A stretch of DNA of 64,000 nt, taken from a virus. The position numbers and the translations under genes were made by a program. Below, in pieces: positions 49,701-52,216 of the stretch (position 1 is its first letter; every line of letters starts with the position of its first letter). Under the pieces are notes generated by a model. It did not search any database. It saw only the letters and a program-made list of their open reading frames with translations, and was not told where the DNA came from. Location: positions 1 to 64,000 of the IMG/VR virus record IMGVR_UViG_3300025695_000007, one strand, 5' to 3'.

Positions 49701-50123
49701 AGCCGCTGCTTCTGCGGCCTGTCCATAATTCAAATATCCTTGAGAAGCCTCTTGCAATGAAGTAGAGATTGAAGACAGCATAGACCCTGTACTAGCGGCG
49801 TAGGCATTTTGAGCAGATATTAAGTTCTTATAGTTTGCGGCCTGTGTAAGAAAATTAAATGCAGCGGATAGAGCAAAAACATTTGCAGCAAGAGTTGCAT
49901 ACGCAGGAACAAGCCCTCCGGTTATGCCCTGAGCCATCTTCGAAAAGTTTTTAGTACTGTTAGACGAGGCTTTAGCAGCGCCTTTTAAGCGTCTATCTGC
50001 ATTTTGAGAGCCTGCTGCGAGACCGTTGAGACTATCCGCGGCTTTTTTAGCTTTGTTTCCAACGGCTTTTAAATTACCGTCATCGTCTACTTTTACTTTT
50101 ATCTTTATCGTATTTTCAGCCAT
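46743..50123 (-). CDS. Tape measure protein
   Basis: An 1126-residue protein. The N-terminal 200 residues are typical (QGITGGLVPAYATLAANVFA, SYEDTFNRLLRGVSKAEPEL). Hydrophobic segments lie around residues 285-305 and 485-540; long helical stretches and a C-terminal globular region (ARGANAGYPAMLHGTEAVVP, the usual end of phage tape measures) follow. At about 0.15 nm per residue it predicts a tail of roughly 170 nm. It starts on the stop of the chaperone gene (TAATG), directly after the chaperone pair, as in lambda. Confidence 0.93.
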   Translation of the reverse strand: MAENTIKIKVKVDDDGNLKAVGNKAKKAADSLNGLAAGSQNADRRLKGAAKASSNSTKNFSKMAQGITGGLVPAYATLAANVFALSAAFNFLTQAANYKNLISAQNAYAASTGSMLSSISTSLQEASQGYLNYGQAAEAAAIGAAKGFTTGQLTKLTDDAVKISAALGRSYEDTFNRLLRGVSKAEPELLDELGITLRLETATKRFAAANNKAAKSLTEYERGQAVLAEVNRQINNMFGSLDSADFKNPFEQLSVTFDEIVKKATQFVLPIFEGFANIINRSAVAAIAVFGMLGLSIFKAAIPTEEMGEAIDSLGDRFTRMSEKASASIKSLTDSQKQAISALEQSKAKASLKGQKQAAGFVQRGSSSKILTKLASDPTSLNKADESNLRKAFKAAEAQYKKTGQITTGIFAGENIKRVRNFEDTLKKMTASHSTWSMKFVSVHKKAWLRIKQVWAVGGKGFAVTMKGMSNVASTAGKVLNKALGVLGIIGSITILIEGFKELKRSIYDITLSILGLVDRFVQSGPGKGIVKVITFVQNAILTLLDNSVGYLTGFIRIVGEKIGAGLRLLNFNSAAENVEKLAIVDEKFDNFIATMRAGTEVLGDVSEGTASFVDMFAKSDLGEGLESIQEGALAQDVLNEKFDAAKTNIDRLNSSLASMIENYKKLKDTTSFQDALIGARAVSTTGLSNIGISALNTTDPERQSTLITGLREALGYASQLPGLMGELGRKWQNADFSTPLGIAAFIGDVQTLEKSGAEAVANFEGFRNTLDVVGASPSEAFSSIEGIDDLKAKLRDVRKAMEDTVGTLGMGASALNEEFQDATGMGLADLENKLTTLANTYSSLKTEERELNIERMQTSRLSGEFATRAQSEIALREKLLELKTIDATIEARTLELGTDISSLRIAAIAQELEELGNRRAATLENIKVTEDGMDDIKSMGLQLGNTLQSSLSSAFSSLIDGTKSAKQAFADMALSMLKNLGDIIAKMLMMRLLEGALGGSSFGNFLGVPSKRYGGIVSNGKDMNGYASGGIARGANAGYPAMLHGTEAVVPLPDGKSIPVSMQGAGQQNNVTVNVSVDNQGNASTNTQQDSAQAGNLGQVIARAVQQELQNQKRSGGILNPYGAA

Positions 50124-50551
50124 TAGCCTTGTACATTATGGGTGTAGTTCTTACCACCGCTTTTAGCTTTACGCTCTTCTGCTTTTCGTTTTCTATCTGC
50201 TTCTTCAGATCTATATCCCATTAATATTCTTTCATACAATTTCATAAAATATAATATAACTTTTGGATCTTGTACTTCGTAAATATCAAATAATTGTGAG
50301 CAATGTGACCAGTCTTTTCCACAATAAGTGCCGGACATACCTTCCCAGACATCTGATAGTAAATTAAACATAAAAAATGCCACTTGTACCTCTGCCGGAA
50401 AATCCGACTCGGTAAGTGGCATCTTTTGGGGATCGGGTTCTTCACCCAATTGCTCGCATATCTGTAGATATTGATCTATAGATATTGGTGAAGACTGTTC
50501 TTTCACATAACGAGCAAGTAAATCCTGAATATGGGCTACTTGCTCCCAGTA
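50123..50551 (-). CDS. Tail assembly chaperone, T part (reached by -1 frameshift)
   Basis: The -1 frame is open from the slippery site at 50551-50557 to the stop at 50123 (142 residues), beginning YWEQVAHIQDLLARYVKEQS. The only independent start is a GTG at 50506 without a convincing ribosome site, so it is best read as the extension of the 146-residue chaperone, giving a fusion of about 284 residues. This is the lambda G-GT arrangement: the short and long forms bind tube and tape-measure proteins during tail assembly and do not stay in the particle. The C-terminus is Lys/Arg-rich. Confidence 0.85.
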   Translation of the reverse strand, partial: YWEQVAHIQDLLARYVKEQSSPISIDQYLQICEQLGEEPDPQKMPLTESDFPAEVQVAFFMFNLLSDVWEGMSGTYCGKDWSHCSQLFDIYEVQDPKVILYFMKLYERILMGYRSEEADRKRKAEERKAKSGGKNYTHNVQG

Positions 50552-50976
50552 AAATTTTCAAGATTTGAAACAGTATCTGTAATCCAAGAATCAAAACTAT
50601 TAGAATTACGCATTAGTAATTCCGCATTGTCTTGTGTAAAAGGTAGTTCATCGTCAGGATTCTGTTTCGAAATATCCACCAAAAGAAACTCTTCTAAGTA
50701 TGAAAATTTCAAGCCAGACCAACCTTTGATAACTGCACTTACATACTCTTCCAGAAACTTATCTTCATCTAAATTTTCTTCTGGCTGATGAGTACGCTTA
50801 TTAAATTTTGTGCTAACACATCTCTTTCGAAGTTTTAGTAATTCATCTCTGCCCAAGTAACAAATATCTACAGTAAATCCTTTATACCCAGGAAAGTCAA
50901 TAGATACTGTCTTGCTTGGAGTTAATAAACTCGCTAATGAAACTGGAGCGGCTTTAGAAGTTACTGAATCTGTCAT
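50536..50976 (-). CDS. Tail assembly chaperone, G part
   Basis: A 146-residue protein, MTDSVTSKAAPVSLASLLTP, with a beta N-terminal part (TVSIDFPGYKGFTVDICYLG) and a helical remainder (YVSAVIKGWSGLKF), the typical pattern of HK97/lambda-type chaperones encoded between tube and tape measure. It has its own promoter P9 and an AAGGA ribosome site. Ribosomes that slip at codon 142 continue into the T frame. Confidence 0.85.
   Translation of the reverse strand: MTDSVTSKAAPVSLASLLTPSKTVSIDFPGYKGFTVDICYLGRDELLKLRKRCVSTKFNKRTHQPEENLDEDKFLEEYVSAVIKGWSGLKFSYLEEFLLVDISKQNPDDELPFTQDNAELLMRNSNSFDSWITDTVSNLENFTGSK
50551..50557 (-). promoter_or_regulatory. -1 ribosomal frameshift site A AAT TTT
   Basis: In zero frame the codons are GAA AAT TTT ACT; the heptamer A AAT TTT fits X XXY YYZ with X=A and Y=T. 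A TGA in the -1 frame lies directly before it and the zero-frame TAG is 12-14 bases after it, so the two frames overlap by a few codons around the site only. TGGG and CCCA just downstream could form a weak hairpin. Confidence 0.8.
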
Positions 50977-51094: not shown

Positions 51095-52216
51095 CTATGC
51101 ACCCTTGTAAGTAAGCGTAACTTCGTCTGTTAATTCAATGCTGCTTGGTAGAGCATTGAAATTCGTTTCAAGAGAAATTACATCTTCAATAGAGTGAGTA
51201 GGAATGTCTACGTGAGCAGTAGGCATTGCTAGCTCTAGTGCTGGAGCGGAAGTTCCACCAACTTTAAATGTAAGTGCAAAAGAGTTAGTAACAACATTTG
51301 AAATTGACTTAACATCTTGGAAGAAGTCAGTAGACTTATTTGTTCCAGCCGTATCTTTTAGTAGATAACAAGTAAAGCTTCCACTTACTGCTCGACCACC
51401 AGTTACGTGACCAATTGGAACATTCACTACACCTAGCTCTTCTGGAGTAATGTAAGTAATATTATTAGTAATAGTAATACTACCACCAGTAAGAGTAAGA
51501 TCGTAAGAGGCTTCTAACTCATCAACAGTATCGCCATCAGGATCCTGAGTAGTAGGTACAATTGTTAATTGTGTGAGACGGTTACGAATAAAGTTGTCTG
51601 TGGCTGTAACGTCTTCGTAGATAGTAGCAGTAGGAAGACCTGTTGCTGTATCATCCACAATTTCTGCTGCAAAGCCTGACCAATCAATCATTGCAATACC
51701 GTCAATTTCAAAGTTAAGAGTTGCTTCATTAACAACGGCATTTGTTAACTTATACACTTTCTTGTTTGCATTACCTACAACAAAGTAGATACTTGCGGTA
51801 CCTAGAGTAGACTTATTTGAGTTCGAAAAGTCAATATTTAAGTCTGTTGTATCCGCAGTAAATCCTGGGAAGGTATTGGATGCATAAGCAGCAGATCCTG
51901 CCATTAGTGCCCATAATACTTCTTCTACTGCGTGATGGTTTGCTGCTGTATCTGCAGCGCCCGCACCTGTTCCTGCTGAAACGAACGGACGTACATAAGT
52001 ACTAAAAGACCACTCTGCTGGGGCTAGAGAGTCGTTAAATGCGCGACGACCCCGCTTACTAGTGCCTGCAGAATCTTCCATCTCTGAAAGAGCGATTTCA
52101 GATACGTTTGTAGCCTGTGAAAAACTGAAACCGTCGAGTACAGGAAGTTCCCATACATTGGCTCCAATTTCCACGTAAACTTTAGTATCGCGACTAAAAT
52201 ATAATTGTTGTGCCAT
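51095..52216 (-). CDS. Major tail tube protein
   Basis: A 373-residue protein, MAQQLYFSRDTKVYVEIGAN, with the beta-rich pattern of siphophage tube proteins: FSQATNVSEIALSEMEDSAG, AEWSFSTYVRPF, FEIDGIAMIDWSGFA and the C-terminal ALTFKVGGTSAPALELAMPT. It lies between tail terminator and chaperones, the standard place. It is longer than lambda gpV (246), probably owing to an added C-terminal domain. A clear ribosome site (AGGAG) precedes it. Confidence 0.85.
   Translation of the reverse strand: MAQQLYFSRDTKVYVEIGANVWELPVLDGFSFSQATNVSEIALSEMEDSAGTSKRGRRAFNDSLAPAEWSFSTYVRPFVSAGTGAGAADTAANHHAVEEVLWALMAGSAAYASNTFPGFTADTTDLNIDFSNSNKSTLGTASIYFVVGNANKKVYKLTNAVVNEATLNFEIDGIAMIDWSGFAAEIVDDTATGLPTATIYEDVTATDNFIRNRLTQLTIVPTTQDPDGDTVDELEASYDLTLTGGSITITNNITYITPEELGVVNVPIGHVTGGRAVSGSFTCYLLKDTAGTNKSTDFFQDVKSISNVVTNSFALTFKVGGTSAPALELAMPTAHVDIPTHSIEDVISLETNFNALPSSIELTDEVTLTYKGA

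Follow-up and report, generated by a model that had tools for sequence, protein, structure and literature searches.

The window analyzed here, a stretch of 64,000 nucleotides that forms part of a 78,691-base IMG/VR virus record, carries on its minus strand a siphophage tail module with genes for the head-tail adaptor, tail completion, tail terminator, and major tail proteins, two small genes, the tape measure gene, and genes for minor tail proteins (Table 1). The two small genes, here called G and GT, follow the major tail protein gene, precede that of the tape measure protein, and match the PHROG tail assembly chaperone families phrog_313 (E = 4.7e-15) and phrog_3914 (E = 6.7e-18), respectively. 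Two chaperone frames in this position, with a -1 fusion predicted close to where the first one ends, recall gpG and gpGT of phage lambda, for which Xu, Hendrix and Duda reportedly described a programmed -1 frameshift in 2004; the likeness is one of logic only. The stop codon of GT overlaps the ATG of the tape measure gene as TAATG (positions 50125 to 50121), which suggests translational coupling.

Table 1. Positions of the genes and signals at the chaperone junction (window coordinates)
Feature	Position	Strand	Remarks
Major tail protein, 373 aa, upstream of G	51095..52216	-	phrog_3575
G, tail assembly chaperone, zero frame, 146 aa	50536..50976	-	phrog_313 and predicted fold
-1-frame TGA, upstream bound of overlap, directly before heptamer	50558..50560	-	
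Slippery heptamer A AAT TTT	50551..50557	-	AAT-TTT would re-pair to AAA-TTT
Candidate stimulatory hairpin	50512..50545	-	arms 50545-50536 and 50521-50512, 5 nt 3' of heptamer
Zero-frame stop TAG of G, inside 5' arm of hairpin	50536..50538	-	
GTG, lone ATG/GTG/TTG between slip and conserved GT core	50504..50506	-	
GT extension, -1 frame, 142 codons plus stop	50123..50551	-	phrog_3914 (matched from the GTG)
Tape measure protein, 1126 aa	46743..50123	-	

Near the end of G, the zero frame reads GAA AAT TTT ACT GGG AGC AAG TAG (minus strand), with the heptamer A AAT TTT in phase and five codons ahead of the stop. After a slip at this site, the -1 frame is open from 50551 to 50126, with its stop at 50125 to 50123, and the predicted fusion would consist of the 142 residues of G through Phe142 and 142 residues of the extension, 284 in all. 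Each of these features had been put forward in the first-pass annotation, namely, an A AAT TTT a few codons ahead of the zero-frame stop, a -1-frame TGA directly upstream of it, a -1 frame open for 142 codons into the second gene, and a combined protein of about 284 residues, and all were found as described. A AAT TTT is an unusual heptamer, on which the A-site Phe tRNA would re-pair perfectly and the P-site Asn tRNA with a third-position (wobble) mismatch. The likelihood of meeting such a heptamer by chance was estimated from the 40 open reading frames of at least 150 amino acids in the window (18,267 positions), which hold an in-phase XXXYYYZ at 67 positions and AAATTTT at 3; for an overlap of 7 phased positions, the chance is approximately 2.5% for any XXXYYYZ and 0.1% for AAATTTT.

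A search of IMG/VR with G returned 43 loci. All 41 loci at 66 to 100% identity have AAATTTT exactly 19 nt ahead of the G stop and GT in the -1 frame, which in two of them is open to the contig end. The two frames might have come from an assembly or sequencing error or from a broken gene, as G is broken in one surveyed T5-like record (L056); as 41 further loci of the clade, drawn from separate samples, repeat the frame relation, the 19-nt spacing, and the heptamer, this explanation is refuted by recurrence, and we give it next to no probability. The 11 bases GAAAATTTTAC, in which all three wobble positions of the heptamer lie, do not vary across the clade of the window (28 distinct sequences); coding in two frames can account for part of the conservation of the heptamer.

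Searches for more distant relatives, together with fetched cultured phages, brought the set to 197 sequences, the window plus 196 loci (with one contig present twice, as L042 and L057). GT was located in them by profile, and its frame was compared with that of G. The frame was scored in 191 sequences, 147 at -1 and 44 at +1; the six unscored were L031, L043, and L071 (contig ends), L056 (broken G), and L053 and L138 (no G frame found). For the tree and cluster counts given below, 183 of the 191 were retained after a length filter and formed 69 clusters at 90% identity. An in-phase X XXY YYZ heptamer is present in the overlap of all 147 scored -1 sequences, as AAAAAAC in 80, AAATTTT in 52, and GGGAAAC in 15. 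Because every scored -1 locus has an overlap heptamer and the 11 bases above are invariant, chance no longer casts doubt on the heptamer. The earlier proposal of a lambda-type G-GT frameshift is upheld by the -1 frame of GT, the PHROG chaperone matches, and the heptamer in every scored -1 relative, and so is its remark that the heptamer departs from that of lambda, three heptamers being present across this chaperone family. The lambda heptamer is G GGA AAG; unlike lambda, the window has A AAT TTT, one sister clade having GGGAAAC, as well as a covarying hairpin with the G stop in its stem, and its chaperones belong to a different sequence family.

Fusions of this kind have precedents. According to excerpts of PMC5009743, tailed phages differ in using -1, -2, or +1 shifts for chaperone fusion, and a +1 shift is thought likely in HSTV-2. 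Excerpts of PMC3556154 assign -1 chaperone frameshifts in Caulobacter phages to AAAAAAC in phiCbK and GGGAAAC in Colossus; these are two of the three heptamers found in the window's relatives, and, unlike the window, neither phage is described there as using AAATTTT. The kind of event and two of the three heptamers were therefore already known. GT gave a weak structural match to CcrColossus (E = 0.029). In a literature search that most subscription papers lay outside, AAATTTT was found together with frameshift and slippery only for a Wolbachia phage hydrolase region.

Overlooked in the first-pass annotation was the hairpin downstream of the heptamer. Its z score in the window is -2.58 over 68 nt and -1.74 over 88 nt. 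By group, mean z over clusters 3' of the site (with the clusters below -2) is -2.88 for AAATTTT (17 of 22), -1.72 for AAAAAAC (13 of 30), -0.39 for GGGAAAC (2 of 6), and -0.70 for +1 (2 of 11). When compared with all 45-nt windows of its own G and GT, the junction fold ranked in the best 5% in 20 of 22 AAATTTT and 19 of 30 AAAAAAC clusters; the signal was weak in the GGGAAAC group (2 of 6 clusters), and 3' of the +1 site no hairpin comparable to the AAATTTT one emerged, none of 11 clusters being in the best 5%. We then aligned 19 sequences of our own choice from the 41 loci plus the window, in which 88.9% of cells pair, compared with 23 to 46% in slid controls. Four pairs covary, with 8 cells changed on both sides and few changes in all; for example, a TAA stop goes with U opposite and TAG with C or U. 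Of the 19, L023 folds into another stem, and in two more the shared stem has weaker ends. The consensus also contained an outer stem that extended into the heptamer; it was set aside, since a ribosome positioned there would already have opened it. In the AAAAAAC group (e.g., L079, L113, and L124), the 3' stem pairs CCTCC with GGAGG, and the GGAGG often stands directly ahead of an in-frame ATG (GGAGGTATG), which places a Shine-Dalgarno (SD)-like sequence within the hairpin.

GT might alternatively be made as a separate protein, coupled to the end of G and started at the GTG at 50506 or at a later codon, and T5 and most T5-like records indeed annotate GT as a gene with its own start. The first-pass annotation had taken the GTG to be the sole start of the second gene; this is true of the stretch before the conserved core, but a TTG at 50449 and an ATG at 50422 lie further in. 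Within the AAATTTT group, the GTG is kept in only 3 of 22 clusters, 13 of the 22 have no ATG, GTG, or TTG at all between the slip and the conserved GT core, and a start with an SD-like site for GT was found in none of the 22, the GTG of the window included. From the G stop to the GTG, nearest-neighbor substitutions are distributed 20:9:46 by -1 codon position, a protein-coding pattern in a segment that a GTG start would leave out. When the extension was modeled from the slip (mean pLDDT of 88.6), it opened with a confident helix (residues 2 to 18) that spans the GTG and would be cut by starting there, and a separate start leaves the heptamer unexplained. We consider a separate GT protein very improbable. 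Because the GTG is kept in 3 of 22 clusters and the core is without an upstream start in 13, frameshifting would be the only plausible route to GT in the AAATTTT group. In the GGGAAAC and AAAAAAC groups, the start-codon test alone is not decisive, since every member has some start codon before or within the GT core; an SD-like site at the GT start is present in 1 of 30 AAAAAAC clusters.

The frame could also be changed by RNA polymerase slipping on the A and T runs of the site (A4T4) rather than by the ribosome. These runs of four are short compared with the approximately nine or more of the transcriptional slippage sites reported in excerpts of PMC3711429, and the GGGAAAC of the sister clade and the phased heptamer with its hairpin suit ribosomes, which makes polymerase slippage, if anything, even less probable than a separate GT protein. 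Altogether, the frames, the in-phase heptamer and its conservation, the covarying hairpin, the coding constraint on the extension, and the lack of conserved starts argue, with little room for doubt, that the G/GT tail assembly chaperone gene of this T5-related siphophage undergoes programmed -1 ribosomal frameshifting, in which some ribosomes probably slip back one base to make the longer chaperone form.

As to the mechanism, we infer a slippage rate at which most ribosomes would end at the TAG to give G of 146 residues, while a minority would be held up by the hairpin 5 nt downstream, which may thereby have a stimulating role. Held with AAT in the P site and TTT in the A site, these ribosomes would slip one base back onto AAA and TTT and continue through GT to yield G-GT of 284 residues. 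In lambda, according to excerpts of PMC5009743, the tape measure is coated by G, and the tube protein is brought in through the T part. By analogy, G of the window would coat the tape measure protein during tail assembly, G-GT would recruit the tail tube protein through its T part, and the ratio of the two would set correct assembly.

The predicted folds of the chaperones match T5-like tape measure chaperones. Against solved structures (994 chains), the top two matches were YqbN (Z = 5.3) and the HK97 chaperone 2OB9 (Z = 4.4), both weak; a Foldseek search of the PDB gave nothing below E = 0.001, and a profile search of solved-structure sequences gave a single chance-level match, the designed protein 6m6z. 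A DNA search of cultured phages returned no match, Rfam gave nothing in 50300 to 50800, and no tRNA genes were found in the window. In a comparison limited to the tail module, the chaperone genes are homologous at 36 to 38% to those of Demerecviridae, i.e., T5-like phages, and they share with T5p139/T5p138 of T5 and the other Demerecviridae chaperones (phrog_313 and phrog_3914) the same gene order and a predicted shift at the same Phe codon. Unlike the window, with its -1 frame and A AAT TTT, T5 and other Demerecviridae have GT in the +1 frame with TTT CG(T/A).

This +1 arrangement, with an in-frame TTT CG(T/A) in the overlap, is seen in all 44 scored T5-like sequences, comprising T5 and cultured relatives from Escherichia, Salmonella, Klebsiella, Yersinia, Serratia, Pantoea, Erwinia, Enterobacter, and Vibrio, and the motif falls at the homologous Phe codon in all 42 distinct +1 genes. 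Phe142 of G is itself conserved throughout the aligned relatives (alignment A1). All 38 distinct genes of the AAATTTT group, where its codon belongs to the slip site, have TTT there; outside the slip site, the codon is TTT in 43 and TTC in 13 of 56 AAAAAAC-group genes and TTT in 4 and TTC in 6 of 10 GGGAAAC-group genes. The Phe codon is always TTT where it is part of the predicted slip site and free where that predicted site lies elsewhere. With -1 heptamers in some relatives and TTT CG(T/A) with a +1 frame in others, the predicted direction of the shift therefore differs at one conserved Phe codon. In a tree of the 69 representatives (unrooted, from a quick search with trait columns excluded, with long +1 branches, and showing no direction of the switch), the +1 and -1 sequences lie on opposite sides of one branch with SH-aLRT support of 99. 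AAAAAAC forms one group. AAATTTT occurs in two places: besides the clade of the window, it is present in a freshwater set that lies nested among the GGGAAAC phages, apparently a separate origin of this heptamer. This pattern implies at least one change of direction and at least three changes of heptamer. The freshwater set (L165, L168, L174, and kin) has a 3' hairpin of its own.

It is likely, from these comparisons, that ribosomes on the genes of a single orthologous chaperone family are shifted at one conserved Phe codon, back in some phages and ahead in others, and that T5 uses a UUU_CGU +1 shift on bacterial ribosomes. GT of the T5-like phages could instead be reached by -2 slippage or from its own start: the Shivani record joins G and GT over a span of 832 bases with a public protein of 277 residues, which is consistent with -2, and the Sugarland announcement describes a chaperone, like that of T5, without a predicted frameshift signal. 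Several observations weigh against this. In the +1 phages, local usage is 0.475 for Phe TTT and 0.571 for Arg CGN, yet TTT CG(T/A) is present in 42 of 42 distinct genes; among 16,326 codons from 11 cluster representatives, in-phase TTT CGN occurs 13 times, and 11 of these are the junctions, one per cluster. In D232, the +1 frame opens only 11 nt ahead of the stop, in AAC TTT CGT TAA, where re-pairing at -2 would be poor. Within the constant-spacing T5-like group, the region ahead of the annotated GT start shows a coding pattern of 7:1:36 by +1 codon position, which indicates that this region is read as protein. A -2 shift or an independent start is thus unlikely in these phages, and the +1 shift at UUU_CGN is the reading we prefer. 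In the T5 record, T5p139 and T5p138 are annotated as two separate hypothetical proteins, and the Shivani announcement mentions neither frameshift nor chaperone. From the phage collection, 20 of roughly 900 cultured T5-like records were included. The literature search, outside which most subscription papers lay, found no UUU_CGU shift in a phage and no paper combining Tequintavirus, frameshift, and tape measure. Candidates for an unannotated +1 frameshift are L190 (T5, AY692264), L045 to L055, and L191 to L197.

The proposed signal resembles a site in RNA viruses. Excerpts of PMC3498833 describe a UUU_CGN +1 site in influenza A PA-X, with re-pairing from UUU to UUC, and note CGU as a common codon in E. 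coli; excerpts of PMC5052127, in which bacteria and phage go unmentioned, describe a UUU_CGN +1 site in plant amalgaviruses. As judged from these excerpts, the T5-like relatives, though not the window, share with PA-X and the amalgaviruses the predicted P-site change from UUU to UUC and a CGN codon next; the PA-X and amalgavirus sites serve eukaryotic ribosomes and RNA viruses, whereas the T5-like sites are in phages.

The -1 event belongs to a kind already known, its heptamer being unusual, and would add to that mechanism a large uncultured lineage whose signal combines this heptamer with a covarying hairpin 3' of it; newer is the +1 proposal for T5. In our view, the comparison of shift directions outweighs the -1 event in importance. 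The orthologues would keep G and G-GT while the means switches between -1, by three heptamers, and +1, at one conserved codon, and because the products are kept while the means changes, they offer direct evidence that selection would act on the fusion and not on the signal. The analysis also makes a specific prediction for T5, a classic laboratory phage, which, if true, would make T5 a bacterial model for the UUU_CGN shift, and the T5-related phages would provide a natural comparison of backward and forward slipping at the same spot.

Two cultured T5-like records were unusual in other respects. In L056 (Klebsiella phage vB_Kpn_3), G and its neighbors are fragmented by frame errors, and parts of G carry an anti-repressor name; the breaks are likely sequencing errors. 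In L053 (Aeromonas phage AhSzq-1, NC_047949), many in-frame TAG codons are present in the tail genes across the whole 4.2-kb locus, and when TAG is read as a residue, G (141 aa), GT (188 aa), and the tape measure gene (622 aa) are open, which suggests amber reassignment or suppression in this cultured phage. The L053 junction has TTT CGA, with GT in the +1 frame.
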